Source: Owenia fusiformis
Lineage: Eukaryota; Annelida; Polychaeta; Sabellida; Oweniidae
Reading direction: 5' to 3'
Assembly: GCA_903813345.2 (NCBI GenBank)
Contig: CAIIXF020000008.1
Coordinates: forward strand, 17,904,822 to 17,968,821
DNA length: 64,000 bases
Both the position numbers and the translations under genes were made by a program. A model generated the notes under the pieces. It ran no database searches, was not told the origin of the DNA, and was given only the letters and a program-made list of their open reading frames with translations. Shown piece by piece: positions 700 through 61,517 of this stretch (position 1 is the first letter of the stretch; every line of letters begins with the position of its first letter).

Positions 700-3600
700 A
701 CTAAAATGGAAAAACATCCTAGGCGATGACAACTTTAAAAATTCTGCTAATGAAGAACAAACATACAAACATGGCATGTCTAATCTCATTAAAAATGTAA
801 CAACAAATTGATAGGAATGTAAATTCAAAATTATCTTAATCACTTTATGACTTTTAAGTACAAATAAAAATGTACTTCATAGATTGTGAATTGGCCAAAA
901 GAAAAAATGAAACAACAAAATGATAGGAATGCAAATTCAAAATTATCTAAATTACTTTATGACTTTTAAGTACAAATAAAAATGTACTTCATAGATTGTG
1001 AATTGGCCAAAAGAACTTTACACTGCTATACAATGGAATGACTTAGAAGAAGGATGCTTGATATCAGGCATTGAATTCATACAAATCATAAAGATAAATT
1101 TTGTGACTGGAACTTGTGTGACTGGAATTTTAGAGCTCCTGAAAAATCATATATCGCCTCATTGACACTTTATAAATGGCACAGCTTTGGAATGACACCG
1201 GGATGGAATGACACCACTATAGAATGACACCACTATTGAATAATAAAATAATTAGAATTGGGCCTCCGTCATTAGAACTTTATGAATGACACTTGACTAG
1301 TATGGTATGACGCCTCTATTGACTTACATCAGTATGAAATGTGGATTATTAAATCTTAAACAGATTAAAATTGGACCCAAGTTATGACTTCATGTGTAAC
1401 AATGGTAATGACTTTAAGAATATCACACATCCTAGGCGATGACAACATTAACAATTCTGCTAATGAAGAACAAACATACAAACATGGCATGTCTAATCTC
1501 ATTAAAAATGTAACAACAAAAAAATGATAGGAATGTGAATTCAAAATTATCTAAATCACTTTATGACTTTTAAGTACAAATAAAAATGTACTTCATAGAT
1601 TGTGAATTGGCCAAAAGAACTATACACTGCTATACAATGGAATGACTTAGAAGAAGGATGCTTGATAGCAGGCATTGAATTCATACAAATCATAAAGATA
1701 AATTTTGTGACTGGAAATTTTGTGACTGGAATTTTAGAGCTCCTGAAAATCATATATTGCCTCATTGACACTTTATAAATGGCACAACTTTGGAATGACA
1801 CCGGGATGGAATGACACCACTATAGAATGACACCACTATTGAATAATAGCAGTATGAAATGGGGATTCTTAAATCTTAATATAAATAATTAGAATTGGGC
1901 TTCTGTCATTAGAATTTTATGAATAACACTTGACTAGTATGGTATGACACCTCTATTGACTGACATCAATATGGAATGTGGAATGTGGACTATTAAATCT
2001 TAAACAGATTAAAATTGGACCCAAGTTATGACTTCATGTGTAACAATGGTAATGACTTCAAGAATATCACACATCCTAGGTGATGACAACATTAACAATT
2101 CTGCTAATGAAGAACAAACATACAAACATGGCATGTCTAATCTCATTAAAAATGTAACAACAAAATGATAGGAATGCAAATTCAAAATTATCTAAATCAC
2201 TTTATGACTTCTAAGTACAAACAAAAATGTACTTCATAGATTGTGAATTGGCCAAAAGAAAAAATGAAACAACAAAATGATAGGAATGCAAATTCAAAAT
2301 TATCTAAATCACTTTATGACTTTTAACTACAAATGAAAATGTACTTCATAGATTGTGAATTGGCCAAAATAAAAATGAAACAACAAAATGATAGGAATGC
2401 AAATTCAAAATTATCTAAATCACTTTATGACTTTTACGTACAAATAAAAATGTACTTCATAGATTGCGAATTGGCCAAAAGAACTTCACACTGCTATACA
2501 ATGGAATGACTTAGAAGAAGGATGCTTGATATCAGGCATAGAATTCATACAAATCATAAAGATAAATTTTGTGACTGGAAATTTTGTGACTGGAATTTTA
2601 GAGCTCCCGAAAAATCATATATCACCTCATTGACACTTTATAAATGGCACAACTTTGGAATGACACCGGGATGGAATGACACCACTATAGAATGACACCA
2701 CTATTGAATAATAAAATAATTAGAATTGGGCCTCCGTCATTAGAACTTTATGAATGACACTTGACTAGTATGGTATGACGCCTCTATTGACTTACATCAG
2801 TATGAAATGTGGATTATTAAATCTTAAACAGATTAAAATTGGACCCAAGTTATGACTTCATGTGTAACAATGGTAATGACTTTAAGAATATCACACATCC
2901 TAGGCGATGACAACATTAACAATTCTGCTAATGAAGAACAAACATACAAACATGGCATGTCTAATCTCATTAAAAAGGTAACAACAAATTGATAGGAATG
3001 TAAATTCAAAATTATCTTAATCACTTTATGACTTTTAACTACAAATAAAAATGTACTTCATAGATTGTGAATTGGCCAAAAGAAAAAATGAAACAACAAA
3101 ATGATAGGAATGCAAATTCAAAATTATCTAAATCACTTTATGACTTTTAAGTACAAATAAAAATGTACTTCATAGATTGTGAATTGGCCAAAAGAAAAAA
3201 TGAAACAACAAAATGATAGGAATGCAAATTCAAAATTATCTAAATCACTTTATGACTTTTAAGTACAAATAAAAATGTACTTCATAGATTGTGAATTGGC
3301 CAAAGAAAAAATGAAACAACAAAATGATAGGAATGCAAATTCAAAATTATCTAAATCACTTTATGACTTTTAAGTACAAATAAAAATGTACTTCATAGAT
3401 TGTGAATTGGCCAAAAGAAAAAATGAAACAACAAAATGATAGGAATGCAAATTCAAAATTATCTAAATCACTTTATGACTTTTAAGTACAAATAAAAATG
3501 TACTTCATAGATTGTGAATTGGCCAAAAGAACTATACACTGCTATACAATGGAATGACTTAGAAGAAGGATGCTTGATATCAGGCATTGAATTCATACAA

Positions 3601-5600
3601 ATCATAAAGATAAATTTTGTGACTGGAACTTGTGTGACTGGAATTTTAGAGCTCCTGAAAAATCATATATCGCCTCATTGACACTTTATAAATGGCACAA
3701 CTTTGGAATGACACCGGGATGGAATGACACCACTATAGAATGACACCACTATTGAATAATAAAATAATTAGAATTGGGCCTCCGTCATTAGAACTTTATG
3801 AATGACACTTGACTAGTATGGTATGACGCCTCTATTGACTTACATCAGTATGAAATGTGGATTATTAAATCTTAAACAGATTAAAATTGGACCCAAGTTA
3901 TGACTTCATGTGTAACGATGGTAATGACTTTAAGAATATCACACATCCTAGGCGATGACAACATTAACAATTCTGCTAATGAAGAACAAATATACAAACA
4001 TGGCATGTCTAATCTTATTAAAAATGTAACAACAAAATGATAGGAATGTCAATTCAAAATGATCTAAATCACTTTATGACTTTTAAGTACAAATAAAAAT
4101 GTACTTCATAGATTGTGAATTGGCCAAAAGAAAAAATGAACCAACAAAATGATAGCAATGTAAATAAAAAATTATCTAAATCACTTTATGACTTTTAAGT
4201 ACAAATAAAAATGTACTTCATAGATTGTGAATTGGCCAAAAGAACTTTACACTGCTATACAATGGAATGACTTAGAAGAAGGATGCTTGATATCAGGCAT
4301 AGAATTCATACAAATCATAAAGATAAATTTTGTGACTGGAAATTTTGTGACTGGAATTTTAGAGCTTCCGAAAAATCATATATCACCTCATTGACACTTT
4401 ATAAATGGCACAATTTTGGAATGACACCGGGATGGAATGACACCACTACAGAATGACACCACTATTGAATAATAGCAGTATGTAATGGGGGTTCTTAAAT
4501 CTTAATATAAATAATTAAAACTGGGCCTCGGTCATTAGAATTTTATGAATGACACTTGACTAGTATGGTATGACACCTCTATTGACTGACATCAGTATGG
4601 AATGTGGAATGTGGATTATTAAATCTTAAACAGATTAAAATTGGACCCAAGTTATGACTTCATGTGTAACAATGGTAATGACTTTAAGAATATCACACAT
4701 CCTAGGCGATGACAACATTAACAATTCTGCTAATGAAGAACAAACATACAAACATGGCATGTCTAATCTCATTAGAAATGTAACAACAAAATGATAGGAA
4801 TGTAAATTCAAAATTATCTAAATCACTTTATGACTTTTAAGTAAAAATAAAAATGTACTTCAAAGATTGTGAATTTGCCAAAAAATGTAACAAAATGATA
4901 GGAATGTAAATTCAAAATGATCTAAATCACTTTATGACTTTTAAGTACAAATAAAAATGTACTTCAAAGATTGTGAATTGGCCAAAAGAAAAAATGTAAC
5001 ATTAAATTGATAGGAATGTAAATTCAAAATTATCTAAATCACTTTATGACTTTTAAGTACAAATAAAAAATGTACTTCATAGATTGTGAATTGGCCAAAA
5101 GAACTATACACTGCTATACAATGGAATGACTTAGAAGAAGGATGCTTGATATCAGGCATAGAATTCATACAAATCATAAAGATAAATTTTGTGACTGGAA
5201 ATTTTGTGACTGGAATTTTAGAGCTCCCGAAAAATCATATATTGCCTCATTGACACTTTATAAATGGCACAACTTTGGAATGACACCGGGATGGAATGAC
5301 ACCACTATGAAATGACACCACTTTTGAATAATAGCAGTACGTAATCGGGATTCTCAAATCTTAATATAAATAATTAGAATTGGGCCTCCTTCATTAGAAT
5401 TTTATCAATGACAAACTGTTGAATTTGAATGACACTTGACTAGTATGGTATGACACCTCTATTGACTGACATCAGTATGGAATGTGAAATGAGGATTATT
5501 AAATCTTAAACAGATTAAAATTGGACCCAAGTTATGACTTCATGTGTAGCAATGGTAATGACTTAAAGAATATCACACATCATTATGGCTTTATCAATGG
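700..5600. repeat. Higher-order tandem repeat, units of ~640-1050 bp
   Basis: A block starting CACATCCTAGGCGATGAC recurs near 715, 1427, 2071, 2893, 3943 and 4697, with a last diverged copy near 5575. Each unit holds a fixed part (TGCTTGATATCAGGC, AATGACACCGGGATGG, GACTAGTATGGTATGAC and so on) plus one to five copies of a 112-bp subunit. Spacings of about 641, 824, 1052 and 751 bp fit a constant core plus whole subunits, with a roughly 40-bp optional segment near the AATAATAGCAG site. It is non-coding; open frames inside it are shared between copies and have no protein character. Confidence 0.9.
3090..3530. repeat. 112-bp tandem subunit array inside the larger repeat
   Basis: ATGATAGGAATGCAAATTC recurs at 3101, 3213, 3324 and 3436, so the unit is 112 bp with one 1-bp deletion. 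Shorter runs of the same subunit lie near 805-1010, 2165-2470, 3000-3090, 4035-4220 and 4790-5090. Copies are nearly identical here, pointing to recent expansion or homogenisation. Confidence 0.9.
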
Positions 5601-6360
5601 CAACTTTGGAATGACATTAGTTAAGTATGACACCTCTATTAAATGACACCAGTATAAAATATGGTTACTTAAATCTGAAACAGATATAGACCCAGTAATG
5701 ATTGTGCAAAATTGGTACTGGCTTTAAGGCTTTAATTATCAATGGCAAACCTTAAATGACATTATTATGGTATGACACCTCTATTAAATGACACCAGAAT
5801 GGAATATGGTTACTTAAATCTGAAACAGATATAGATCCAGTGATGATTGTGCAAAATGGGTACTGGCTTTAGGACTTTAATTATTGATGGCAAACCTTAA
5901 AATGACACTTTTATGGTAAGACATCTCTATTAATTGATGCCAGAATGGAATATGGTTACTTAAAACAGATATGGACCCAAGTAATGATTTCATGTGCTAA
6001 ACCGGTACTTGCAGTAAGACTAAATAATAACATAATAAAGACTTTAATTATGGCAAACTATAAAATGACACTATTATGGTATGACACCTCTATTAAATGA
6101 AACCAGTATGGAATGTCACCAGTATGGAATATGGTTACTTAAATCTGAAACAGATATGAACCTAGTAACGATTGCATGTGCAAAACGGGTATATAATATT
6201 TCATAGACTTTAGTGATCAATGGCAACCTTTAAAATGACACTATTATGGACTGCCACCTCTATTGAATGGCACCAGTATGGAATGACACCAATTTGGAAT
6301 GACACCAGTACTGTATGGTATGACACAAGTTTGTAATGTTGATACCGAAATCTCAGTAAA
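5600..6360. repeat. Older, diverged ~146-bp tandem repeats
   Basis: The phrase GGTTACTTAAATCTGAAACAG recurs near 5663, 5808, 5954 and 6133, with AATGACACCAGTATGG between copies. The units look like an older, decayed relative of the array to the left, sharing the TATGACACCTCTATT and AATGACACC words. Confidence 0.75.
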
Positions 6361-9700: not shown

Positions 9701-12700
9701 CTTTGTTCAAAAAATAAATGTAATAACCTACCAATCTGCACAAATGACATAGTCAAACTTTCCCTCTAAGTCCCCAACACTTTGTCTTCTGTCCCATCTT
9801 AGAATGCTGAAATACATGCAAGAACAATTTTTAAAAAACAAGGCATTAAAAAGCAAACTGTCACCACCTGCCATTTATTACAGCTGTCAGCCATTTCGGA
9901 ACACCAACTGGCGAACACCATTCATAAAAAAGTTGGAGAATTAAGCTAAGAAACAATTTAGCAGAAAGTGGTCGAAATTTGATTCTGACTTTTAATTGCC
10001 TTAATAATATTGTAAAGGACATATGAATGAGAAAAAAGGCGAAACTTTAAGATACTTTCAAAAAGGAATTTGCTTTTTCTTATTTAAACAATTTACCCAA
10101 ATTTACCAGAGTACAAGCAAGAACCTCAACCTCGAGTGCAGGTATTGATGACATACATGTAATTCATAAATCATCTCATTGTCAGTTGAATTCTTATATC
10201 ACAATGGGGTGTTTTCTAATAAATGCTCATATATTGCCCTTTGTGCTATAAAAAAAATTAGTTCAAAACACACAGTTGTACAACGGTTATTTTGACTCAA
10301 ATATAACTGCTTCACTAGATATGTAATATAGAGTTCTACTTCACTAACCTGGAATGTACCTCAGTATCACAAAACTGTTTCACATTTCTAGTAATAATTT
10401 CTTGCACATCTACAAGGTAAAACTTAAAGGTTAAACATAATACCAACATCCATTTACAAGTACATGAAGCTGCATACACAATGTACACATTATATATACA
10501 GGTATGTGTATGTTATATTTGTAAAATGTCAATGAATTACAGAACATCCTAATAATGTTTCATACAATAGAGCTTGATGCTTTTAAATCAACCCTCTAAA
10601 CCACTACTCTTTCAAGCATAATTTTTGGAAACAAAACAGTGAATTGAGCATTGGCTTACTGTCTGCTGATTGTTCATTTCCATCAGTCAAGAGGACTTTA
10701 CTTGCATCTGTTGCTATGGCAACTGCTACTCCAGCTAAACAAGTCATTCCTCCTCCCAATTCACACACAGTTTTTTGACTGTAAGAAATAAGAAATTATC
10801 TCTGAATATGCATATAGGTGGTCAACAGTCAACCTCCGATAACAGGACTTCAAAATCCAGAATATATTCTTACTTTTTACCCCCTGCGATAAGCAGTTAG
10901 CATTTCCCCAATTAAGAACTCGCAATCTGATCAGAAATAATGTATAAGTCATTGCGCATAATAAGATCACATGATTCAGTTTAATCGGGCGCTTCCAAAT
11001 TGGTTATAGCAGGGGGGAAGAAGGAGGTATGGATTCTGGACACCTACTTAGGAGGATGTCAACAGTGAACTATTAAGCATGCCGAGATGCTACAATGTCT
11101 ATGTTCTGAGTAGTCAATTTACTTAGATGCCATACTGTAGCTATCATTAGATTTTTTGGAAATTGATATTCAACAAGCTTGTGTGTGTAATGAGGGGGCT
11201 TCACATGGTGTGTAATGAGGGGGCTTCACATGGTGTAATGAGGGCTTCACATGGTGTGTAATGAGGGGGGCTTCACATGGTGTGTAATGAGGGGGGCTTC
11301 ACATGGTGTGTAATGAGGGGGGCTTCACATGGGCTTGAAGCTAGACTAGTCGTGTACGTATAAGTGTTTTTGAAAAGCAAGAGAATGTTTAAACATGAAT
11401 ACTGCAGTATGTTACAATTTAAGTGATGTCATGCATAATCCAAAATATTTCCCTGTAATTTTACATTATACAGTAAAAGCTGTTTATGTTTATACAGAAG
11501 TCAGTAGAGTATGCGCTGAGGAAGGGTGTCTACTAGAGACAGGTGTTCACTAGAGAGAGGTGTTCACTAGAGACAGGTGTTCACTAGAGAGAGGTGTTCA
11601 CTAGAGAGAGCTGTTCACTAAGAGAGAGCTGTTTACTAAGACAGGTTTTACTGTACTTTTACAGAATAAATCAATAAACGAAAAATTAGCTTGTACTGTA
11701 ATACAATTGAATAAAATAAGATTATTTACCTGAATTTCTCCTTGTGTTTAAGTAGATAATATGTAAGAACCTCTTCAGATGGCCAGACACCTGAAATAAA
11801 TGAACATGTTTAATAATATTCTTACACTCTTACCCTTTAACCATAATCAAGATATATATTTTGATAAAAAGTACTTTGTCTTTCAGCTTCTGTTTTTATA
11901 TTCTTCTTGACAGAAGCCAACATATTTTCAATGGCTCAAATCACACCTAACATGTCTAATTTCTTAAATAGAAAAGGTTCAATCCAAAAACTTTGTTCAG
12001 AGATTTTGTACGCTGCCTATCTAAAACAGTACTGTAAAGCACTTTGAGAAGATGATGCATACTGGCATTGCATTGTTCATACTCATTGATTCTGTTTTGA
12101 TTCCATTTAATAATGCATATTGTATAATAATAGGGGATTTCAGCTTAAATAATCATGCATCCAAAGAACTACTCACAGACATTTCCAGTGTTGTTAAAGC
12201 CCAGTATATCCTCAATATCAGGAGCCTTGGTCAACTGCCTGAAACAACAAAAATAAATTTTATTCATTCTTGTCCCCTGAATTATTTTTCAAACTAATTC
12301 ATTGCATTGGTGCTTAAATTGCATATTTTTAAAGATTCACATCTTTGAGCTTGACCTTTCCTTAGAATTCTTTTTTAACTTTTCAAATTGGTTAGTTTAA
12401 ATTAATTTCAGGTTAAACAAAATCAGAGAATGCTTATTCAATGCAGGAAATAGTCTTGACCATACACATACCTAATATCAAACTGGGACTGCCCTCCAGC
12501 CACAGATGCAGTGTAACGAAACCAGCAAAAGTCTTCTGTTTTAGATTCTGCTGTATTACCACTACTGACATCAGATTCTTTACCATTGGTGTCAGTATCA
12601 GATTCTTTACCATTGGTGTCAGCATCAGATTCTTTACCATTGGTGTCAGCTTCAGATTCTTTACCATTGGTGTCAGCATCAGATTCTTTACCATTGGTGT

Positions 12701-15700
12701 CAGCATCAGATTCTTTACCATTGGTGTCAGCGTCAGGTTCTTTACCATTGGTGTCAGGCTTTATGATTTCAGATTTTAACCCATTTGAATTAATATCTTT
12801 TAAAATTGATGTGACTGTGTTTGTTTTAGTTGAAATAGTAGAATCTACATCTGCATTGTTGTATGAGCGTATTTTTGCTGTGTGGAGTAAACCGAAAGTT
12901 GTGAAACGTCTGACTGAAACCTCATTTATACTGCATCTCTTTCCACGTATAACCTGGAATACATTTTAAATTCAATAGAGGTTTTAGTACAGATAACTGT
13001 TTTGCTGTTGTATTATTTTCCAAGCGCCATGTGTTTCATTTACAAAACCAGAAAAATGAAGGACCCACGGTCCTGTGCTCACACAGTTTAGAACCTTCAG
13101 AGGAATGTATACTGTCTTTCAAACAAAAATATTGATTTGGATTTGTAGTCTCGAACTTTGAGAAACTTAGATAGCACAGTTGTGTGACCTAGTTTGATGA
13201 CCTTTGACCTTGAAAATCTTACTAATTCAGAGTTCAGTAAGGTCTTTTGTGATTAAGCTGACCAAAATTTACATCCAAAAATAAATTCGAAAAATCAACT
13301 ATTTTGACCTTTCGAAGGTCACTGAAGGTCAAGTAAAGGTCAAATTCTAAAACTAATGTCAGATTTGAACTCCTGACAACTTGTAGGGAATTGGTCAAAT
13401 TGAAGCAAGTTGAAAAATAACTTATCTTTACTGTTTTTTGACGTCAAATATCTCAAAAAAGGTAAAAATTTGATGCTGACATACATTGAGCAATATGTAA
13501 GGAATGCTTAAATCTAGTAATGATGTAATTCATTGCAAGAAATGATCAAGTATAAGGCAAACTTTGAGAAACTTGTCAATCACAAAACCATTGACTTTTT
13601 ACATGAGAAAGTTTCCTGAAAATGACTTGTCAAATCTATAGAGTAAAAACCAAAAACTGTAATTCCAAGAGCTTTGAAATCTTCAGAGGACATAAGTTGC
13701 ATATACAGCAACTACTGGAAGTTATTTGAAAGTTCTACTTCAACAAAGTGTCTAGTATTTACAGAAAATTTGACTTTTTGACATCAAAATCTGCAATTTC
13801 TCGGAAACTGGGCGAACTTTGGAAATGGCGATGATGGGTCAAATAGGCATTATAGATATGCATAGAATGAATGTGGATATGACTCAATCCGAATAAGTTT
13901 TAATTTGTGCGGCCAATGTTGACGGACGGACGGACCAACGGACGGACGGACGCCTGGTTTATCCCATAGGCTCACTGTGTGAGCCTAAAATGGCATTGCT
14001 AGGGTTCTTTGGCATCATGACAAAAGTTTTCCAAAAGTTACCAAGTACTGAGCCATGGACAGCATTGATTCAGATAAGTTTCATCGTTGAAATTAGATTG
14101 CTTTACATAAAAATGTGTTCCCCACAAGATAGGCTTGGCTTAGAGGATAAATTTTGGCTATTTTTGCTTCTTGATATAAATAAAAAAATACTTGCTGATT
14201 TAAAGATAAAAGTGTACAGTCTGTTACACTGCTTCAAAGGCAAGCAGTTGAACCTGAAAAATAAGAAATCTAGAGACCATTGTGCCATAATATATAGAAA
14301 AATATATTCATATTGCACACGAATGACATATGTATATTTCAGATTATTTAGTGTTTAGTGCAATAAGCCTGTCCCCTCTTGTAATTTGAGGTCTGTCCGC
14401 CATGTTATTTTTTTGAGAATTAACATGGTAGAGAAGCATCAAAATATAAGAGGTTACAGACTTTTAGTCATATAAATCTGACCCTCGTATGATGTTATCT
14501 GTTGTTATTTTTTCTGATTTGGATATTTATTTTTTCTTATTTTCTTGCATACGAGCGTCATACACACTTCCCTCATCTATATTGCGGGAAAGGTCACTTC
14601 CGGGTTAATCTGAGTCTAGATGTAAAACTATATCAAACGAAATCATAACTATTTGTTACACGAAGATTCAGTTGAAAGGGAAGCAGTGTCGTTAAGAAGG
14701 GAAGTTATTTAGAAAAGTTATTGTTTCAAAATGAGAAAAGTGATAAGTATGAGAGAACTGCTTTGGAATCGATCTCTGCGTAATAAATAATTATGATTCC
14801 GTTTCGATACATGTTTTACATTTAGACTACCGAAACAACATTAGGAACATGGCGGGCGATAATGAAAATATAATTCAATTGATTATATTTTGTCAATTAT
14901 CAAGCGTTTTACATGTCTAAGGTAAGATTTAACACTTTGATGTTTGAGCTCAATAATTACTCGATAATTTGTGTGACTTTGGTTAGTATGTTAACTATGG
15001 TTACCCAGACAGGCCAGGAAAGCATTTACCGCAATTTGTTCCATATAATATCTACGACCGTGTATGCAAAGAAAATGATAAAAAAAATATCCAAATAAGA
15101 ACTAGGAATATCGAAGAACAGCATACAACGGTCGGATTTATATGACTACAGACTTTATGAACTAATTTACAAGCAACCCAACATATACAAATGTCATTCG
15201 TGTGCAATATAAATATATTTTTCTATAAATTGCACAAAATTATTTAGATTTCTTAAAGGACGATTCTCGGTTTGGAGAACGAAGTTCATCAATCTAAATG
15301 AGCATTATCCCTGCTTCGGACAAATTTGATATGTTTACATAATATAGATTTGAATGTCCTCTTTTGAATTGTCATAATTTAATTTGGGTAATATTTCTAG
15401 ATTTTTCGCAAAAAAATATTAGCGCAGTACACTGATGAACTTCTTTCTCTAAATCGAGACTTGTATTTTATTGAATCGGTCAAATTGAACGTTATCCCTG
15501 CTTCAGACCAATTTGTTAATTTTACATCTTGTAGATTTAAATGTCCTCTTTTGAATATTCATAGTTTAATTTGGGTAATATTTCTATATTTTTCATTAAA
15601 AAAATTATTAACCCAGGAGACTGTTCTCCAAACCGAGAATCGTCCTTTCTGGTTTAACTGCTTCTCTTATTGAAGCAGTGAAACAGACTGTATATATCTG

Positions 15701-16245: not shown

Positions 16246-16463
16246 CTTGGAGGGAATGAATGACGCCGTCAATGTTATCACGAAATAACTCAATCTGTTA
16301 CAACTACAGGCATCTCAAAATTCATTTCGTTCGTTGCGTACCAGGAGGTACGGATGGCACTGGACGAAAGGCTCGGAGACTGAACTACAGGGTGGGTTTA
16401 ACGTCCATGACTATACATTCATTCATCATAACAATACACGGTTGTTGTTGTTATGTGTAGTTG

Positions 16464-17753
16464 CACGGTGTATAACCCAAACGCTCCTACATGCACGACG
16501 GAGCGTTTCTACGCGGAAACGCTCCGAAGCGAAATAAAATGGCGGCTAATGAAGATTCCACTATGACCGTAAGTATTGTTTCTCTCGTTTCTCTAACATA
16601 TCATATGTTATGGTGAAATATTATGTACCATTCGATGAACAATACCGTGAGCAAAGATCTTATTTATCCAACTTTTGGTGGTAAACTGTTATTTGCTTGA
16701 TCAAAGCTCCGTAGTGTAGATCGAACGAATCTGAAGATGACGATTTGACCACAAATTACGATTTAAACTAGTATTTCTATGAAAACGTTAATATTTCTGT
16801 TAAAGTAGTAGATCACAAACTCGTATATTCTCATTTCTTAAAATCCCAGTCCAAATCCATTACTTGTTCTCAAGAAATCGCTTGTTTTCCTCGAAACGCT
16901 CCGTCGATTTAGAACACAATTTTAGAAACGCTCTTACCATTTTGTTTTGATATCATTTTCAGATTATTAGGGAAGAGTTCCGAATCGAATCTATCTCTCA
17001 AAAACGTGTTGTACTTGTTAGGCAAATTGAAACATCTGAACCTGGTGGTGCTAAACGTGCAACTAGCTGATTCAAGCCTACATTAGATGATGTCATGCCT
17101 ACATGTGTGCTAGATCATAATACTATAGAAAAAAACGAAAATTAATATGTGAATTAATCTTTCTTCTTTTGATGCCAAGGGGTATAATAGATCTTAATTT
17201 CTTTCTCTTCCTGAAAAGGAAAGGCAAGCTATATATTTCCTAAACAGATCTAGACTACCGGAGCGTTTCCAGTTCACTGTGTTAACCAGATAGGAGCGTT
17301 TCTTGAATATGAGAATGTCATCATTTTTAAGACTGGATTTTCGGTCATCAAATCACTGTTACGATAATGTATGGTGCATTGAAGCATTGGAATTTGACTA
17401 AAATATACGTTGGTGCTCTAATCTTGGCTCAATTAATCACATGTATCGACAAAATGGGTTTTGACCGGTAGAATGACAAATACGTTTTTGGATTTCGTTC
17501 TATACTGCTTCGTACAGCTCTTCCTAATTGCTTCAAACGTCAACAGCCAGCCAAGTACAACATGAATATCACACCCATCGAATGGTATACTCGAAATATG
17601 TAACTCATACCTCTTGTTCCCATTATTGGGGAAATCGTCAGACGGCTCATCATTCCCGCCAGCCAGTTTTCCTAGTCCGGAGCGTTTCTTTGTTTAATTT
17701 CAGTAATGAAACGCTCCGTCGTGCATGTAGGAACGTTTGGGTTATACACCGTG
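16464..17753 (+). mobile_element. 1290-bp DNA transposon: 46-bp TIRs, 5-bp TSD, GGAGCGTTTC motifs
   Basis: Both ends start CACGGTGTATAACCCAAACG. The 46-bp inverted repeats (16464-16509 and 17708-17753) differ at one base. AGTTG flanks both sides (16459-16463 and 17754-17758), a 5-bp target duplication. The decamer GGAGCGTTTC or its complement occurs about nine times, mainly as GAAACGCTCC in the left half (16515, 16893, 16925) and as GGAGCGTTTC in the right half (17259, 17293, 17679). Such an arrangement is expected for transposase-binding sites. A split 45-codon ORF lies inside. No transposase catalytic domain is visible, so it appears non-autonomous. CAC-initial ends plus a 5-bp duplication are features of the Transib/RAG group, but the assignment is inference. 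It begins about 220 bp upstream of the CAMKMT start codon. Confidence 0.8.
16539..17070 (+). CDS. Split 45-aa ORF inside the CACGGTG element
   Basis: Exon 1 is ATG 16539-16568 (MAANEDSTMT) followed by GTAAGT. A good acceptor (TATCATTTTCAG) precedes exon 2 at 16963-17070, which reads IIREEFRIESISQKRVVLVR and on to TGA at 17068. The phases fit (30 + 108 bp). Past the TGA the same frame stays open 24 more codons to TAA 17143-17145. I do not recognise the product. It lies between the terminal repeats, so it is more likely a transposon N-terminal exon or a captured fragment than an independent host gene. Its promoter would face away from CAMKMT. Both splice sites were judged by eye only. Confidence 0.35.
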
Positions 17754-17758
17754 AGTTG

Positions 17759-18978: not shown

Positions 18979-19565
18979 GGCCTTATGGCCTTATCTTTAT
19001 CTCATAGATTTTCTTATACCACGATGTGAAGAAAATGTTGTGGGAATTCTGCCTACAACGGTAAAACAGTACACAGTATAGATTCGAATCTTAACTTGAC
19101 TAAGTGTAAATATAACAAAACGGTTTTTTAACCTAAAAAAATAACAAAAGGTTTTCCCAGTCATTGAGGGTGGTAAGCAATCTCACACTCGACGTTTGTC
19201 GCAATGACGTAGCCTGAGGAGTATTGCTTCCACACAAGAGTTCCGACTCCCTCTATGGTACTAAGCTCCGGAACAGATCATATGCATGAGTAAGGGAGGA
19301 ATGAGTCGAGTTCCTAATCTCTGATCCCTGCCAAGAGCGGGCAGTTCACATCCGTGACTCGCTAGGCCCCGGAAAAGACTCAAACCACAAGGTACTATAG
19401 ACCTTTCCACACATAATCGCGCCCGTCCCTCCTTAGTTTCGATCCACTGACCCCCCGGTTTATGGACCTACTACGATACCACCCGGCCAACTCGTTCTAA
19501 GTGTCAGTTCCGGTCAAATAATTCATATATATCTTTGCGATCCATATGCAGTGTTAAAGAAAAAA

Positions 19566-19680
19566 GTACCAATTTGAAGGGTCGAGCCCAAACCGGCAAG
19601 ACAGCTGACAGCGCTCTAACCAACTGAGCTATACTCACGAGGGGAAAGAGTACCCGTGTATATACAACCTACCGCCGAGC
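19566..19680 (-). mobile_element. tRNA-derived SINE-like fragment
   Basis: On the minus strand TAGCTCAGTTGGTTAGAGC (19631-19613) is a near-perfect A box and GGCTCGACCC (about 19588-19579) a B box with one change, at tRNA-like spacing. The acceptor stem does not close, so it is not a tRNA gene. The leader (GCTCGGCGGTAGGTTG... to CCCCTCGTG) returns inverted at 21277-21330. Confidence 0.6.
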
Positions 19681-20376
19681 AAAGACCCGAAGATGTCTGA
19701 AAATGTAGGGGGTGAGTTATTATCTTTTGTTTATATCTTGAATTTCTCAATATGAGAAACAGATAAAACACAGAATTGTGTGTAACTGATAAAGTTATTG
19801 TTCCAGGCACTCATGTTTGCAAAATAATGAGTACTTAGGGCAATGTTTACTATCCAATCGCTAAATTCAACTTTTAAATATTTGAATGATGATTTACATC
19901 TTGAATAAGTAACAACCATTGCTGTCTTTACTTCATTCGATTCAAAGATACAATAGGTGTAAATGTATCATATTTATTTCACTGCCATACGTTGCATATC
20001 ATTGAAATCACCGGTGAAAGTTGAAAATGAAAGACCCGATTATGTCACGAGTACGATTATATAGGACCCGAAGCTACCACCGAGCTATTCCGACTATACC
20101 GTGAGAAGAACCCGATGAGGTAGTGAGTAAGCTTTCGAATGAGCTATAATATCATGACGATATCACAAATATTCCTTTTTATTTATCATATACTCCTGGC
20201 ACCGGGATATAATATAATATGATATAATTCCCGCAGCACTATACGTCAACGTTTGTTTCCGGCAAAGTTCTTTAAAACATTGAATTCATGCTTACACTTG
20301 AATCACCATAATTTCCTATGTGTCTATGGTAAGAGTGCAACCCAAAAACATTTAATTCTGCATTGCAAGCGACATT
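19681..20376. other. Spacer with ACCCGA motifs, no gene seen
   Basis: ATG at 19693 (MSENVG) with a GTGAGT donor at 19712 is the only exon-like piece. GACCCGA(T/A) words recur near 19685, 20033, 20068 and 20110, with an inverted ATCGGGTC near 20874. Confidence 0.3.
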
Positions 20377-20670
20377 CTACTCAAAGAACACAACTTGAAG
20401 AATCCCAAGCTTCACAAGCTTCATATCCTCGAAACGAAAATTACCGTGATCTTTCTTTGATAATACAATACCATAGTCAAAAACATTGTAAATCCATTTT
20501 TTGCCATTTAACTCAGGCACATTAACTTTAATACTCAGTAATGGATGGTGCTGACTGAAGTGAACCACAAAGTCATCCATCTCGTGTGATTTATAACTAC
20601 AGTGGAAGCATTTGTACCGAGGACCTGAAATACAATGTTTCGATGTGCAGTGGTAACTGGTGATAGCCAT
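20377..20670 (-). CDS. Hypothetical 97-aa C2H2 zinc-finger protein
   Basis: The frame opens MAITSYHCTSKHC and contains one classical finger, CFHCSYKSHEMDDFVVHFSQ then H: C-x2-C-x12-H-x3-H, roughly residues 21-41. After it come LLSIKVNVPELNGKKW and a mixed basic tail before TAG. The start follows an A-rich run. The region lies between two inverted copies of a 50-bp leader (19635-19680 and 21277-21330), so it may belong to a mobile element rather than be a host gene. It could also be the first exon of something longer. Zn binding and nucleic-acid contact are family inference only. The frame on the opposite strand is a shadow. Confidence 0.45.
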   Translation of the reverse strand: MAITSYHCTSKHCISGPRYKCFHCSYKSHEMDDFVVHFSQHHPLLSIKVNVPELNGKKWIYNVFDYGIVLSKKDHGNFRFEDMKLVKLGILQVVFFE

Positions 20671-21276
20671 ATTTTTTTCAATTTCATTATATTGTTCACA
20701 ACAAAATGATTCACATGAATGATGCAGATTGTATGTTTATTATTTTTTCATCAGCACGTCATAAACCCGACGATATAATCGGATCTCAACAGATTTTACT
20801 CAAGTAATGTTCAGATTCTGAGATCCTTTACTCAAGATATTTTCGGATCTTTATAATATTACTCGTCGATCACATCGGGTCCGATGTCCGATAACCTCGG
20901 ATCTTTTAGGACAAAGTTTAAGTGAAGATTTTGCTGTTCAAAAGTGCTATTTTGACCTAATATTTTGACACTTAATATATTATGCATATGCACATCCATT
21001 TACCGACCCAAGTATGTCTTATGTATGGCTCATTATCAATTAAAGCGAGTATGAATGAGAAAAACAAGTCGAAAACCATTATACGTTTACCTTATCTCTT
21101 AATTTGGACATAAAAATATATTTCAACTATAATTCTAGGCCAATTGCGCCTGCTAGAACATCTTAGTAACAACTCTAACCATCCAAAGGAATTGTTAGTG
21201 ACATTATATTACCTTTATTGTCCATTTTCCTACGAGATGACATTATCAAACATTTTGCTCGGCGGTATGTGCGTGT

Positions 21277-21330
21277 CTTGCTCGGCGGTAGGTTGTATAT
21301 ACACGGGTACTCTTTCCCCTCGTGTATACT
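21277..21330 (+). repeat. Inverted copy of the SINE-leader repeat
   Basis: TTGCTCGGCGGTAGGTTGTA and the following ACACGGGTACTCTTTCC are the inverted complement of 19630-19680. A second short copy of TTGCTCGGCGGTA begins 21 bp upstream (about 21256). The pair flanks the zinc-finger ORF. Confidence 0.75.
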
Positions 21331-27557: not shown

Positions 27558-28035
27558 CGACTTTGTAACAAAATGGATAAACTTCCCTCGGAGGAAATTT
27601 TTATTTTCATCATTCTAACCATAAAGGAGGTTGATTTGTATCCAAATATTTTACCCGTATGTTCATGGTAACATCTGGTTTCTGAAAAGACAACCAGTAC
27701 GAGTATATCGTGCACTCAAGGGTTTCAATAATCGAGTGAGAAATCTCTTACTTTAGTAACAAGGACGTCGCGGATGTTAACACAATACAACCAAGACGTT
27801 ATGAAATTCACAATTCACACGTCCTTGTTGCTGAAGTGAGGGAATTTTCACCCGATTATCGAAGCTGATGGATATATTTGCTCGTGACTGACTAGATCTT
27901 CAGTAACCGGGTGTTACTATTTACATACGGGTAAAATATTTGGATTGTAATCAACCTCTGTGTTTGTTAGAATGCTGAAAAAATCTAACAATTTTTCTCT
28001 TACGGAAGTTCATCCATTTTGTTATAAATACATAG
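27558..28035. mobile_element. ~480-bp near-complete palindromic foldback element
   Basis: GTAACAAAATGGATAAACTTCC at the left pairs with GGAAGTTCATCCATTTTG at the right. GGAGGTTGATTTGTATCCAA pairs with TTGGATTGTAATCAACCTC. AATCGAGTGAGAAATCTC and AACAAGGACGT pair with ACGTCCTTGTT and ACCCGATTATCG near the centre. The arms are roughly 200 bp with moderate divergence. Confidence 0.7.
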
Positions 28036-36100: not shown

Positions 36101-39100
36101 CAGCATCTGTTCATATATTATGATTCTTTACAGGAACGGGAGAAAGTAGGAAAATTACATTCTCAATTTCTTCTGTCTAAATAGCCGAAGACCACGGTCC
36201 GAGAGCACTTATAGCATCTCTTCGTATCCTGTTTCTTCGCGTTATGCCGTTTCAACAGCAAAAGGAAACTAATCATGCGTGATAGATAATCTCCCAATTC
36301 AACCCTGATCTAGAGATCAAACAGACAATCCGTCATGATTATCCTACATTTGAAACGGAGACCTGATCTCAATCGCATGCATTAGTCCGTCCTTCTCTGA
36401 ATCATCTTCAATAGGTCGTGATATAACAATGTATAAATGTTAGTGGTCTTTAGGCGGGAATCTCAACCACAGTGCATTATTCCGTCCTTCTCTGAATCAT
36501 CTTCAATAGGTCATGATATAACAATGTATGAATGTTAATGGTCTTTAGGCGGGAATCTCAATCACAGTGCATTATTCCGTCCTTCTCTGAATCATCTTCA
36601 ATAGGTGATGATATAACAATGTATGAATGTTAGTGGTCTTTAGGCGGGAATCTCAATCACAGTGCATTATTCCGTCCTTCTCTGAATCATCTTCAATAGG
36701 TGATGATATAACAATGTATGAATGTTAGTGGTCTTTAGGCGGGAATCTCAATCACAGTGCATTATTCCGCCTTTCTCTGACTAATCTTCAATAGGTCGTG
36801 ATATAACAATGAATGAATGTTAGTGGTCTTTAGGCGGGAATCTCAATCACAGTGCATTATTCCGTCCTTCGCTGAATCATCTTCAATAGGTCGTGATATA
36901 ACAATGTATGAATGTTAGTGGTCTTTAGGCGGGAATCTCAATCACAGTGCATTATTCCGCCTTTCTCTGACTAATCTTCAATAGGTCGTGATATAACAAT
37001 GAATGAATGTTAGTGGTCTTTAGGCGTGAATCTCAATCACGGTGCATTATTCCGTCCTTCGCTGAATCATCTTCAATAGGTCATGATACAACAATGTATA
37101 AATGTTAGTGGTCTTTATGCGGGAATCTCAACCACAGTGCATTATTCCGTCCTTCTCTGAATCATCTTCAATAGGTCATGATATAACAATGTATGAATGT
37201 TAGTGGTCTTTAGGCGGGAATCTCAATCACAGTGCATTATTCCGTCCTTCTCTGAATCATCTTCAATAGGTCATGATATAACAATGTATGAATGTTAGTG
37301 GTCTTTAGGCGGGAATCTCAATCACAGTGCATTATTCCGTCCTTCTCTGAATCATCTTCAATAGGTCATGATATAACAATGTATGAATGTTAGTGGTCTT
37401 TAGGCGGGAATCTCAATCACAGTGCATTATTCCGTCCTTCTCTGAATCATCTTCAATAGGCCGTGATATAACAATGTATGAATGTTAGTGGTCTTTAGGC
37501 GGGAATCTCAATCACAGTGCATTATTCCGTCCTTCTCTGAATCATCTTCAATAGGTCATGATACAACAATGTATAAATGTTAGTGGTCTTTATGCGGGAA
37601 TCTCAATCACAGTGCATTATTCCGTCCTTCTCTGAATAATCTTCAATAGGTCGTGATATAACAATGTCTGAATATTATTGGTCTTTATGCGGGAATCTCA
37701 ATCACAGTGCATTATTCCGTCCTTCTCTGAATCATCTTCAATAGGTGATGATATAACAATGTATGAATGTTAGTGGTCTTTAGGCGTGAATCTCAATCAC
37801 AGTGCATTATTCCGTCCTTCTTTGAATCATCTTCAATAGGTCATGATACAACAATGTATAAATGTTAGTGGTCTTTATGCGGGAATCTCAACCACAGTGC
37901 ATTATTCCGTCCTTCTCTGAATCATCTTCAATAGGTCATGATATAACAATGTATGAATGTTAATGGTCTTTAGGCGGGAATCTCAATCACAGTGCATTAT
38001 TCCGCCTTTCTCTGACTAATCTTCAATAGGTCGTGATATAACAATGAATGAATGTTAGTGGTCTTTAGGCGTGAATCTCAATCACGGTGCATTATTCCGT
38101 CCTTCTTTGAATCATCTTCAATAGGTCGTGATATAACAATGTATGAATGTTAGTGGTCTTTATGCGTGAATCTCAATCACAGTGCATTATTCCGTCCTTC
38201 TTTGAATCATCTTCAATAGGTCGTGATATAACAATGTATGAATGTTAGTGGTCTTTATGCGTGAATCTCAATCACAGTGCATTATTCCGTCCTTCTTTGA
38301 ATCATCTTCAATAGGTCGTGATATAACAATGTATGAATGTTAGTGGTCTTTATGCGGGAATCTCAACCACAGTGCATTATCCCGCCTTTCTCTGACTAAT
38401 CTTCAATAGGTTGGGACATACCACTAATGCCAGAATGTAAATGGCCTTTATGCAGGGATGTATGCAGAAAGCTGCTTTTCAGCGAATAAAAAGTATGTCA
38501 AACAACTAACGGCCATTGTGGGGGTCGAACCAGCATCCTGGGAATTAGGTGCAAGAAATTGCCAGTAATAAAAACATCTAATAATCCTTGTTGAGTTCAA
38601 TTATAGTATGTCTTATATATCAAAGCACGACTCCCGTGTGTATTCATATACTTCGCAAACTTTATTTACATACAATTTTGATATTTTGATAGATTTTGTA
38701 ACTCAAATTGGCACAAAATCAAAGTTTTGGGTGTTGATCCATTACTCATCTCAGGATTTAACAAATATGTTTCTGAATACATCATTACTTTCATAGCTAA
38801 TGAATGGTTTGAAAATATTTTACTGGTTATTTTTATGAAGCAAAATCTCATAGAATTCCTGTTTTGATGTCTTTAGGACATTCTGCATAACACTCTTCTT
38901 CCTTTCAAATAATTCTAACTATTATAAAGTAGTTCCAAAATCATAGGCGTTTAATTTGGCTGGTTTTCTGATCGAATTAAGGGAGGGAACATCGACAAGA
39001 TATCCAGGATAGAATAGCTCTGCGGAACATTAAATGACAAGCCTGAATAAAAATTGGATCTCAAGATGAAAGCGTTGACTTTAAACAATTTTCATTAACT

Positions 39101-42100: not shown

Positions 42101-45100
42101 GTACCGTGGTATTAAGTCCTGCTTAAAATGAACAATGTTTAATAGATTGTTCAGCCTGGTTGGTAAACTGCAGTGGTGCTTGCTTTGGCATATTGATCAG
42201 CCTTATTGTATCTAACGGTGATATATGCCACTTAAAGAGCAATTATCTCGCCTCACTAGTTACCCACAAATTGAAGGTACTATCAATTGTAAGGAAAGTG
42301 TGATTAAAACATAACATATCGGGGTGTTAGTGTTCAGTAAAGTGTATATCCGTGTAGAAATTGCATACACCAATGATGAATATGCAATAATCAATCTTTA
42401 GCCTCTTTGTCTAGCCTTTAACCATTTATATTTAACTTTAACCCCTGCCCAGTTTCCAACCATTATGTCTAAAGTGCAACAATTCATGTCTAACTTTCAA
42501 CCCTTAATGTCTAAATTACAACCATACATGTGTGCCTTTGAACCATTCGCGTGTTACTTACAATCACGCATGTGTTTATACTGTAGAACATCCACGTATA
42601 ACTTACAATCATATACGTGCAACTTTCAACCATTTACGTCTGACTTACAACCATTCTTGGGCAGCTTACAACCATTCACCTGCAACTTACAGTCATTTAC
42701 GCCTGACTTACAACCATTCATGATGTGTAGTTTACAACCATTCACGTGCAACTTACAATCATTCACGTGTAACTTACAACCATTCGCGTTAACTTAAACC
42801 TGCAACTATCATCACGCGGTAGTATCTCTTCGGGACGTATCGAAACCACTCCGTCCCGAAAAACCGTTAATTTGAATTTAAAACCTACCCCAGTGTTTGA
42901 AAATCAAGGATTGTGAGTCTCACACTTCACCGTTTTTCTTCAAACTTGTTCCGTACAAAGCTTCACAGAAATACCTTTCAGTCGATATATTGTTTTCGTG
43001 TACAAAGTACCTCGTTTTAGCGGCGTTTTGGTCCCCAGCTGCGAGATAAAGCAAATTTTCATAACTTTCAACTGTAAGTCAAGTTATCTCGCCAGTCTTT
43101 TACCCATTCTCGCTCATAATTTCAGAATGAACTCCCATTACAACCTTCCATCGCTACGTTTTGATTTTTGGGCATCAAACGCAGCAGTTTCTAAATCATC
43201 CACACATCTCTTAAAATTTGACGAATACGTCCCGTCACCTTCCACTACGCCCCGCCGAGTCTATGACTACAAACGTAGAGTTGTATTCTAAAACATTTTG
43301 TTCGTCGTTGTGTAATTTTACATAGGTTTGCCTTGGTCGTTTCTTAACACCAGTCTTAAGTTTAGCATACATACGGAGTATAACTATAACTGATTGCATG
43401 AAATTGATAATTTAAATGTTTGTGAAGATGTTGCTTTTTAACTTTAATTATATGTAATTGTCCTGTATTTGATTTTGTGAGGTATTCCCAATACCTCCAA
43501 ATTTTCTTGATGTTTTTCCTCAATTACAATAGATCGGAAATGGATGATAAATCTGATGAATTTTTGAAAATCGACATTCCCATGTAAACCCATGAGAAGA
43601 CAGCTGAATTTGCTATCTTTATTCAACAAAAAGTTGATACGTTTCTTCAGGTTCAACAAAGTTATAGGTTAGGGCTGTCCAAATCTGCAAAATTTTCCAA
43701 AAATCTGTCATCTGATAGATTCTAGTTAAAAATTGACTCTTGGTACAAATATTTCCACTCTAGACCCCTGGGAAATTTTGCCACGCGTCTCACTTGAAGT
43801 TTTGGTAATTTTGACAAATATGCCGTTTTCATAAATGGTTTATAACTCAAAATTAAACTGTTGTATTTCAGGAATATGTATTTTTTCTTCATCATGTATG
43901 ATTTTCAATAACCCTACAGGCACCACTTTTTTTAGCTAAATCCATCGGGAAACTTTGCCACGCTTAATTTCAAAATAACGGAGATGTTATCAAAATTGAG
44001 CAATATTGGCACAAAAACGTTTCTAGATTCATATAAAGAATGCATCATCATACAACACTAATTGGTATATAAACAACATCTACTGACTTGGTCTGATAAT
44101 GTAATATAAAGATTTTAACTGTTGTGTGTCAACCTTTCTTCTGTATGATTCCATTGGATTACATTATGAAACGTGTACCATATAAAATGATACATGTTTC
44201 TAACGTTATGCTGAAAATAATATAATTGACATCACCCATCCTTTCGCATTTTAACATTTTTTCAAGGAAAGGGCAGTTTAAACGTTTCTTAAAAATACTT
44301 TCAATTGTTTAGTAATTAAAATCTGTATATTGCAATATCGGGAAATCTAAATTTTAGGGAGATTTTGGACCACCCTATTATAGGTATATTGAAAATGGAC
44401 AAGAATGGGTAAATCTTAAAACACAATCCGATTGGTATTTAGAAGAGACAATGGCAACCTACAAACGGACACATCGATGGACAAATTGTTTTAGAATGCA
44501 ACTCTACGTGTATAGTGATAGACTCGGCGGGGCGTAGTGGAAGATGACGGGACGTATTGGTCAAATTTGAAGAGATGTGTGGATGATTTAGAAACTGCTG
44601 CGTTTGATGCCCAAAAATCAAGACGTAGCGATGGAAGGTTGTAATGGGAGTCCATTCTGAAATTATGGGCGAGAATGGGTAAAAGACTGGCGAGATAACT
44701 TGACTTACAGTTGAAAGTTATGAAAATTTGCTTTATCTCACAGCTGGGGACCAAAACGCCGCTAAAACGAGGTACTTTGTACACGAAAACAATGTATCAA
44801 CTGAAAGGTATTTCTGTGAAACTTTGTACGGAACAAGTTTGAAGAAAAACGGTGAAGTGTGAGACTCACAATCCTTGATTTTCAAACACTGGGGTAGGTT
44901 TTAAATTCAAACTAACGGTTTTTCGGGACGGAGTGGTTTCGATACGTCCCGAAGAGATACTACCGCGTGATCATATCTAAACTGCAACTATTCGAGAGTC
45001 ATAACACGTCATTGTGTAAGTGGAGTAATATAATTTATACCGTTCTCGGTTCTTTATTTTATACCTAGATCATAAATCATACAATTTCATCGCATATACA

Positions 45101-54229: not shown

Positions 54230-56145
54230 TTCTGGCCGTAGCCGCGTCGTACGACTGAATGTAAACAAACGTTAGTTTTCAATCCAGTTCGTTCAGGCTT
54301 ACACAGTCGGCTAGTTAATCAGAGAATTAGTAAGATCTATCGCTTTCTCCAGTAATGTACATTGACTTGATATCCTTGATATTGGCGCAGTTTGATTCAG
54401 ATGCAAAATAAATCGCTGGCAAAGACTCCGCTATGGAAGTGAATTTAATAGCTCCGAGCTGCGAATTTATCTACTGTTCTATCGCGCATGAATACTAATG
54501 CAGTTTCACTTGTTCCTAACATTACTTTAGCCCCATATTTCATAATGATCCAACTGTACGAGGCAAAATGTAATTGTAATTTGTGACTTCTCGGTGAATG
54601 TACTCGTATACTCTGAACTTTCGTTTGCAGATACGATTAGTACTTGATGCAAAAGCTACCGTGATTATTTAGTAACTAGAAACTGAAATGATTCTCAGTG
54701 TAAATAGATCCAAGGTAGGGTTCGCAAAACTCATCAAATATTTTTTCACCCCCAGGTATTTCTTCACGAACGTGTTTAACCTCATAGTTAAGAGACTGTT
54801 TTATGTAGTAACGATGGTAGTAAATCCATCCATCCCAGATTCGGTTTCAAAACAATCTATAGATTCCAGTGAATTAAAGAAATCGGCATTTTCGCCCTTT
54901 AACGAAAAAAGTTTTTGGATATAAGTCTTCACGTAGAATACTCAAACGATGAATCGATCTTGGGGTTTACTTTGTAATTTGCTGGATCATTATGACATTG
55001 TTTTAATATATAGATTTAAACTGATAAAACTAGAGGAGACGGTGACCTCGACCTTTATGTAATATGGAAATGATCTCAGTTTTCCCGGAATTGTATCATT
55101 ATCTAAGAAATATATTCGCAACGCTTTAATAAACTTGCATATAAATGTTGATTTTTGTCATGTCGCAACTATTTGCATATTTCTAAGTAAGTGAATATAT
55201 TTTAGGCTAATATAGACGTACACTCCCTGATATAAGCTTAGCAAACTAAATGCTTTTTTTACTTTGTCAATTCTCACATAATGTGTTTGAGGAACTTGCT
55301 ATTGATACCCTTTAAGCTTCCCTACAGGAATTTTCCATTTTGAGTCATCAATAATGCTGAGACAAAAATAGGTTCACTTTCTTAGGGACACCCGATGTTT
55401 AATGCGTCAACTGCATGCAACAATTGGAACCAAAACCCCCACGTTCCAAAGGAAGGTATTCGATATTGTGTCCTGCGCCCCTTATGACGGTAATCCCACA
55501 AAATTCCGTAAATCTATGAAGAAATACACAATCTCAGTAAGTTTGAGAAAGAACACTTGACTTACACTTTGCGGAGTTTGGAGAAATAGACCCCTGGACC
55601 ATTATGTATGGACAGTCCTTAATTAAACTATCAGTTAGGATTATAGAGTCTAAATGTGATTACAGCAATATGCATTATTTAGCTTACTTTAACTGTGTGT
55701 TCAGAATGTTTTCAAATGAAACATTCCTAAGGGATGTGACTAGGTAGACGATAACGCCTCCATAATAGACGTTACTTCCATCGAATTGCCTTAATGCATA
55801 ATTCCTATAAAATCATTCCCAAACAAAAAAACGAGTGGAGATCAATCTTTCTATTGGTATATACAATGTGCTATTCGAGTATGCATTAAGGTTATTTGAC
55901 AAATACGGGTGCAAGTCAATTAGGCTAATTATTATTACATTTTTCAAGATTAGCCATTGCCTTTGACTCCTTTATCGTGTCAGGTTTGCTCTAAGATTGG
56001 TCGGTTCAGGTACTAATGTGTTAATATCTTGCATACAGTTAAGTTACATTTCTCCCATGAGATACAATTTATGCTTATGAAAAATTTCTGTTAGTGTTGC
56101 GATTATACTGTGTGAATATAATCAGCAAAATAGTGAACAACCATT
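54230..56145. other. Upstream region of STUM, no gene seen
   Basis: It contains the presumed STUM promoter and 5' UTR. No clear core promoter element is visible. Confidence 0.35.
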
Positions 56146-60582: not shown

Positions 60583-60654
60583 TAGATAACTCAAATTAAT
60601 TGAAAATTTATGTAAAGTAGCCTTAAGATAAAGTAGCCTTAAGGTATCGTTATC

Positions 60655-61110: not shown

Positions 61111-61517
61111 TAAACATGCAAATGTTGATTGACATACAAATCATCCAAAGTTTTAAAGAATTTTAGCATTGCATCTATGGATATTTTTTTTAAATTGTCA
61201 TAGAAAATTTTTCAAATTACATAACGTGTAAATCAAAACTTTTATAGGAGAAAACATTTCACTGAATTCAAATATGCAATTTAAAAGAAGGTAATGTAAG
61301 TCATTAGAGGTCTAATATGCAAGTCTCTTAAAATCTCAAGAAAAACGAGATTTTGCGAGATTTCAAAAGCTATATGGAAACTATACTTTTATTTCAAAAC
61401 ATATTGAACAACCCTCATGCATGCAAAAAATGGTTAGACTGCTATGAGCGCGCGCCACTATCCACTTCTTACATATATGTTTTAACATTTGATCTGCAAC
61501 ATTCATACGGCTGAAAC

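Follow-up and report, generated by a model that had tools for sequence, protein, structure and literature searches.

The RSS-like heptamer follows the consensus CACWRTG, or CACNRTG in its loose form, and hAT elements, in which arrays of subterminal sites are usual, end in YARNG, with a purine at position 3. Mirrored subterminal arrays are a feature of CACTA elements. In the passages of the literature available to us, subterminal repeats are named for the hAT-derived Kat1 (PMC4763223), the CMCT clade overall is described as having mostly CA..TG ends and target-site duplications (TSDs) of 2 to 5 bp, hAT5 and hAT6 are given TSDs of 5 and 6 bp, respectively (PMC12730594), and the terminal inverted repeat (TIR) consensus of protostome RAG-like elements is CACTWMCAAACKTYKBB (PMC7204232).

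The window, by which we mean the whole 64-kb stretch of DNA that was analyzed, has a GC content of 35% and few long open reading frames (ORFs), and it contains three elements with CACG...CGTG ends, here called E1, E2, and E3 (Table 1). Judging from sequence features, we read E1 as a non-autonomous cut-and-paste DNA transposon that probably belongs with E2 and E3 and whose repeated decamer would be bound by the transposase of a relative, a reading to which, as a whole, we assign a probability of roughly two in three (0.68). E1 is treated below as a non-autonomous element of this local CACG-ended group, and its superfamily may be a CMCT-type lineage (including Transib), hAT5/hAT6, or an unplaced lineage.

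Elsewhere in the window, a Spec3/Stum-type exon (53498-54271) scores just above the Pfam cutoff, and an EF-hand exon (61515-62135) has a sarcoplasmic calcium-binding protein, from Nereis, as its best solved relative. Together with the base composition and the ORF content, these exons lead us to judge the DNA to be that of an animal, perhaps a lophotrochozoan. Repetitive DNA includes a higher-order tandem array of 112-bp units and longer blocks (700-6300), a satellite-like array of 21.5 copies of a 95-bp unit (36366-38411), and a short structure resembling an element (15255-15648), whose 26-bp inverted ends match perfectly and at whose border no clear flanking duplication is seen. At 14465-15148, an inverted repeat that ends in TAGTCATATAAATC and is bordered by an 8-bp direct repeat, CAGACTTT, is enclosed by a larger inverted repeat; another, at 59742-60584, has arms of about 160 to 175 nt starting TACTGGGTGGGCCAAAAAAAC, and we take it to be possibly a mariner-like non-autonomous element.

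Table 1. Coordinates of the three CACG-ended elements in the window and of their ends, duplications, sites, and candidate exons
Feature	Position	Strand	Details
Element E1, treated as a non-autonomous CACG-ended transposon	16464..17753	.	1290 bp
E1 left TSD	16459..16463	+	AGTTG
E1 right TSD	17754..17758	+	AGTTG
E1 left TIR	16464..16509	+	46 bp, CACGGTGTATAACCCAAACGCTCC...GGAGCGTTTC
E1 right TIR	17708..17753	-	46 bp, 1 mismatch vs left TIR
E1 site CAAACGCTCC	16478..16487	-	Left arm position 15, inward, 1 mismatch
E1 site GGAGCGTTTC	16500..16509	+	Left arm position 37, outward
E1 site GAAACGCTCC	16516..16525	-	Left arm position 53, inward
E1 inner site	16893..16902	-	Left arm position 430
E1 inner site	16925..16934	-	Left arm position 462, 1 mismatch, 32 bp from neighbor
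E1 inner site	17260..17269	+	Right arm position 485
E1 inner site	17293..17302	+	Right arm position 452, 33 bp from neighbor
E1 site GGAGCGTTTC	17679..17688	+	Right arm position 66, inward
E1 site in right TIR	17708..17717	-	Right arm position 37, outward
E1 site GGAACGTTTG in right TIR	17730..17739	+	Right arm position 15, 2 mismatches
Candidate E1 first exon	16539..16568	+	Before GTAAGT donor (16569)
Candidate E1 second exon	16963..17070	+	After TTTTCAG, 35 codons then TGA, no Pfam match
Element E2	19636..21324	.	1689 bp, perfect 47-bp TIR CACGAGGGG...
E2 flanking duplication	19630-19635 and 21325-21330		TATACT, 6 bp
E2 left sites, AAAGACCCGA-type	19681..20115	+	Arm positions 46, 395, 427, 471 (last two 2 mismatches)
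E2 right inner sites	20779..20903	-	GA[CT]CCGA at 20779, 20843, 20875, 20897
Element E3	42813..44969	.	2157 bp, CACGCGGTAGTATC ends
E3 flanking duplication	42808-42812 and 44970-44974		ATCAT, 5 bp
E3 left arm	42813..43313	+	CGTCCCG-type sites at 19 (outward), 37, 413, 433
E3 right arm	44469..44969	-	Sites of same kind, positions as in left arm

Ends and decamer sites of E1

The two TIRs of E1 are complementary at 45 of 46 nt (98%), with a single mismatch, and the direct repeat AGTTG at their borders is exactly 5 bp long. Both features had been reported in an earlier, sequence-only reading of this DNA, and both were confirmed. The near-perfect TIRs and the exact duplication, together with mirrored decamers and the absence of a transposase domain from the tested pieces, lead us to regard E1 as a non-autonomous TIR transposon, as that reading had proposed. 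Neither the 500-bp flanks of E1 nor the joined flanks matched anything elsewhere in the 64-kb window at E 0.05, and neither a second copy of E1 nor an empty site was found within it. The TIR pattern of E1 had 0 matches in the prokaryote and viral contig collections, where little was expected, the TIR patterns of E2 and E3 had 0 matches in the viral contig collection, and no link of the E1 end or decamer to a transposon was found among the open-licence PMC papers listed.

Ten GGAGCGTTTC-like sites lie in E1, seven of them exact, two with one mismatch, and one with two. On both strands of the window, the seven exact copies of GGAGCGTTTC all fall within E1, as do 9 of the 11 matches at up to one mismatch (the other 2 lie elsewhere in the 64 kb), and the tenth site, which has two mismatches, lies in the right arm as the mirror counterpart of the outermost site on the left. 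Eight of the 10 sites point inward from the nearest end, while both position-37 sites, which lie in the TIRs, point outward. The earlier reading had counted about nine decamers, with opposed directions in the two halves.

Copy number alone is not rare: some 10-mer occurs at least seven times in 10 of 98 stepped 1,290-bp stretches of the window, all ten of which overlap tandem arrays. It is the dispersed, mirrored placement of the E1 sites, not their number, that stands out. Six of the sites lie outside the TIRs; they occupy mirror positions to within 23 nt and all face the same way, a result that random placement gave at a frequency of 2e-5 (200,000 trials, with the observed value of 23 nt as the limit). 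Over positions 47 to 550, the two arms resemble each other (global z of 4.4; local score matched by 5 of 300 shuffles). When the sites are masked, z is at most 2.1 against shuffles and at most 1.4 against other window segments under one scoring and falls below zero under two others. We rejected a long diverged TIR, since the likeness of the arms vanishes with the sites masked. Given no clear homology of the arms outside them, the sites look retained and not like relics of a long repeat, and their mirror-image arrangement in arms with no other clear relationship points to function. The earlier proposal that these arrayed sites are transposase sites is, in our judgment, probable.

Probable kinship of E1, E2, and E3

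When the window was scanned for ends of the CAC..GTG type (14-mer with no more than 2 mismatches, flanked by a repeat of at least 4), five hits were returned, compared to one in total over 20 dinucleotide shuffles, and three of the five are the full elements E1, E2, and E3. The hit at 14318-15202 (TGCA) was dropped because it lies within a longer inverted repeat (14289-15231), and that at 16494-17723 because it lies within E1's own TIR. A laxer scan (10-mer, repeat of at least 5) discriminated poorly, with 6 hits versus 0 to 5 per shuffle. When any terminal trinucleotide was allowed with duplications of exactly 5 bp, the five hits were E1, E3, 10548-14845, 27641-27944, and 55664-63526; E2 was missed owing to its 6-bp repeat, and its source was a listing of inverted repeats (25 of 34 pairs, window from 7.8 kb, up to 6 kb) in which the borders of 14 were checked. 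Of these hits, 27641-27944 is within a longer inverted repeat (27604-27981), and 10548-14845 and 55664-63526 have no long arms among the 25 of 34 pairs listed (up to 6 kb).

The right inner sites of E2 span arm positions of about 419 to 539, no clear near-tip site was found at its right end, and one site lying further in, AAACCCGA at 20764, points outward. In the left flank of E2, positions 19570-19635, taken as their reverse complement, resemble by eye a tRNA or the head of a tRNA-derived SINE, for which neither an Rfam match (19400-19700, E up to 1) nor an ARAGORN match was found.

The arms of E3 (about 500 bp) are identical at 482 of 501 positions (96%), and their divergence grows inward: no difference occurs in the outer 57 bp, and the innermost 101 bp contain 11 of the 19. 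Since tips can be identical while arms diverge, constraint may account for the identity of tips, which is not a clock, and the earlier suggestion that the small TIR divergence of E1 indicates recent movement is correspondingly weak. E3 apparently sits in a 21-bp tandem array. When its flanks are joined with one ATCAT, two CTGCAACTAT copies come to stand at a spacing of 20 bp, close to that of the array units, and the adjoining array is itself matched by the right flank (a match as good occurred in 1 of 500 shuffles). A location within the array would explain the 10-bp direct repeat CTGCAACTAT near the E3 borders as array units. Although this repeat ranks first in the border check, it was not preferred as the duplication because it leaves the ends asymmetrical and because the ATCAT join restores the array spacing.

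The CACG...CGTG ends are common to all three elements, with first bases of CACGGTG in E1, CACGAGG in E2, and CACGCGG in E3 and duplications of 5, 6, and 5 bp, respectively. In an unguided ranking of the 9-mers of each arm, AACGCTCCG came out on top in the two arms of E1 and TACGTCCCG in those of E3, while the leading 9-mers of the two E2 arms were AGGACCCGA and AGATCCGAG; the motifs proper to E2 and E3 are AAAGA[C/T]CCGA and TACGTCCCG. Written in a common direction, the motifs are AACGCTCCGA (E1), AAAGACCCGA (E2), and TACGTCCCGA (E3), and they align on a common core of about [A/T]A[A/C]GN[C/T]CCG[A/T]. The three-way motif score was reached by 2 of 3,000 letter shuffles of the three 12-mer consensuses, in frames that we chose. 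The pattern [AT]A[AC]GN[CT]CCG[AT] has 13 of its 18 window matches in the three elements versus 1.4 expected, a comparison that is partly circular since the pattern was built from those sites.

The elements also agree in layout, with near-tip sites (except at the right end of E2) followed by inner sites from about 395 bp. The inner clusters in both arms of E1, the left arm of E2, and E3 begin within 395 to 452 bp, and their sites are spaced by 32 and 33 bp in E1, 32 and 44 bp in E2 left, and 20 bp in E3. A rule combining near and inner sites for some 9-mer held in 294 of 4,000 random 560-bp arms (7%); its inner part alone, which is all that the right arm of E2 displays, held in 2,282 of 4,000 and proves nothing. 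Two random arms would follow the whole rule with one motif in common at a frequency of about 5e-5, the two arms of E3 counting as one since they are copies of each other. For layout, E1 alone is compelling, while E3 and E2 left are each weak singly, and the kinship of the three elements rests on the combination of features. We find it rather doubtful that they are unrelated and that their common CACG and their resemblance in site layout are accidental. The frequency of random arms that follow the rule and the departure of the E2 right arm from it are what such coincidence would look like, as is the lack of longer similarity among the three (best E = 0.025 among the 32 rows listed, reciprocals included), but agreement on the motif core in so few shuffles and the start of the inner clusters within so narrow an interval argue against it.

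Candidate superfamilies and coding content

The sequence-only reading had placed E1 in a Transib/RAG-type group or else in an undescribed family, on the premise that CAC ends and 5-bp duplications mark Transib/RAG-type elements. The specificity of that premise is unsupported, as hAT5 too has 5-bp TSDs; of the Transib/RAG placement itself, the CAC end and the exact 5-bp TSD stand, while the differing heptamers of E2 and E3, the 6 bp of E2, the protostome consensus, and the lack of a RAG1 domain in the tested pieces tell against it. Altogether, it seems unlikely that E1 is a non-autonomous Transib/RAG-like element with CACGGTG as the heptamer at which a transposase of RAG1 type cuts. CACGGTG fits only the loose RSS consensus CACNRTG, and the first bases of E2 and E3 fit neither form. 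Since CACGAGG and CACGCGG are not RSS-like, the likeness of CACGGTG to the RAG heptamer may be incidental. Duplications of 5 bp, as in Transib and RAG-like elements, flank E1 (AGTTG) and E3 (ATCAT), but E2 has the 6-bp TATACT. In the portions of the literature available, a mouse RAG assay places CACGGTG with the top heptamers if AT, TT, GT, or CT comes next, the TA of E1 not being among these (PMC9723617), and most Transib families have symmetric TIRs, those of Hztransib showing little nonamer likeness (PMC8289069), which is favorable to such an assignment. From the same portions, however, the duplications of ProtoRAG, Transib, and RAG are GC-biased (PMC8289069), and AGTTG, TATACT, and ATCAT are not GC-rich; the E1 end, CACGGTGTATAACCCAA, does not fit the protostome consensus CACTWMCAAACKTYKBB when compared by eye (PMC7204232); and one Transib element was counted in a mollusc survey, a figure that bears only on a mollusc host (PMC10294476).

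We regard as similarly improbable that the group is hAT5/hAT6, animal hAT lineages with duplications of 5 and 6 bp. Subterminal arrays are usual in hAT, but the ends CACGG, CACGA, and CACGC have C as their third base in place of the purine of the general hAT consensus YARNG, which is a weak test, and no hAT domain was found in the tested pieces. TSD lengths of 5 bp (E1 and E3) and 6 bp (E2) do fit those given for hAT5 and hAT6 in the part of the source available (PMC12730594).

No Pfam match above the cutoff was obtained in the tested frames of E1 (five plus one extended, set against 42 frames of at least 25 aa), E2 (two), or E3 (four), and the tested pieces of the three elements contained no RAG1, hAT, or other transposase domain. 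An 81-aa frame across the right end of E1 had a subthreshold match to Pfam RIG-I_C-RD (13.5 versus 25.6 bits), an 86-aa minus-strand ORF of E1 had no Pfam or PDB match, and a 100-aa plus-strand ORF of E2 had one subthreshold Pfam match, DUF6252. A 119-aa minus-strand ORF of E2 (20377-20736) has a zinc-finger-like pattern by eye, with no Pfam match and no database support for a zinc finger. Its five matches in the PDB are at chance level (E of 0.45 to 1.7), three of them being zinc-finger proteins; in the viral contigs, three stretches fit its pattern and none was confirmed; and a model of 98 of its 119 residues had a mean pLDDT of 41.5 and was unusable. In the middle of E3, a protein-like frame with one stop (43426-43725) had no Pfam match.

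In E1, an ATG at 16539, which is not the first ATG of the element, is followed 30 nt on by a GTAAGT donor, and a TTTTCAG acceptor ending at 16962 opens into 35 codons. In E2, an ATG at 19693 is followed by GTGAGT 19 nt on, by eye. The chance of a GTRAGT within about 40 nt is near 1.5% for each, and this suggests that these are putative first exons of lost transposase genes. The same features are relevant to an alternative to which we give little credence, namely, that the transposon is ordinary and that the decamers are transcription-factor or silencing sites, derived from the promoter or enhancer of a lost gene and its mirror, rather than transposase sites. In E1 and E2 alike, the left end contains an ATG and then a GTRAGT donor, and the left inner sites of E1 (16893 and 16925) lie inside the candidate first intron, as might be expected of regulatory sites. 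However, a promoter would be needed at one end only, yet the sites are mirrored in both arms, and the outermost sites belong to the TIR. Finally, that E1 arose by chance or by an inverted duplication other than transposition is highly improbable, as no support for this was found, the TSD at the TIR border is exact, and the CAC..GTG scan yielded five hits with three full elements against a single hit over 20 shuffles.

Proposed mechanism and comparison with known systems

If E1 is a non-autonomous transposon with arrayed transposase sites, a DDE transposase would be supplied in trans from an autonomous relative at another genomic site. It would first bind the decamers next to the tip, one outward and one inward (positions 37 and 53/66), and then the tandem pair about 430 to 485 bp inside each end, after which it would bridge both ends (synapsis) and cut at the CAC border. 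Insertion with a 5-bp stagger would then copy AGTTG. Across E1, E2, and E3, transposase and site may have diverged together, leaving diverged versions of one site core. We tentatively raise the possibility that the three elements represent a not yet classified animal lineage, defined by CACG...CGTG ends, duplications of 5 to 6 bp, and a transposase that requires a co-diverging site (core about AACGNYCCGA) in two separate clusters, the first at the tip and the second some 400 bp further in, with mirrored orientation.

If the shared layout is real, it would illustrate the joint divergence of a transposase and its arrayed sites and would be a long-range counterpart of the IR/DR end. End structure alone could then be used to spot scattered, unclassified non-autonomous elements of this animal group and might lead to the transposase. 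The case is also a warning that a CAC heptamer with a 5-bp duplication is insufficient for a RAG- or Transib-like label.

Compared to known systems, Transib/RAG-like elements share the CAC end and the 5-bp duplication with E1 and E3. They differ in that the heptamer of E1 does not recur in E2 and E3, E2 has a 6-bp duplication, and the protostome consensus is not matched; furthermore, the available literature passages on them contain no mention of arrayed subterminal sites like those of E1. The 5- and 6-bp duplications of hAT5 and hAT6 resemble those of our three elements, which differ in having C instead of a purine as the third end base. CACTA/EnSpm elements have CA..TG ends like E1, and the mirrored subterminal arrays of CACTA are a further likeness, but in the passages available their TSDs are 3 bp in EnSpm (fungal families) and 2 bp in CACTA (MITEs), compared to 5 to 6 bp and CACG here; E1 itself has a 5-bp TSD and begins with CACGG, in contrast to a TSD of 2 to 3 bp and a CACTA-type end. 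Galileo and other P-superfamily elements with long TIRs are alike in their internally repetitive inverted ends, and they differ in having duplications of 7 to 8 bp as opposed to the 5 to 6 bp of E1, E2, and E3. The two-step arrangement of sites in E1 is analogous, with no kinship implied, to the IR/DR ends of Sleeping Beauty (Tc1/mariner), which have an outer and an inner transposase site per end. In Sleeping Beauty, the target is TA and about 165 bp separate the sites, whereas here the interval is about 375 to 400 bp, the sites are clustered, and the duplication is a different one.
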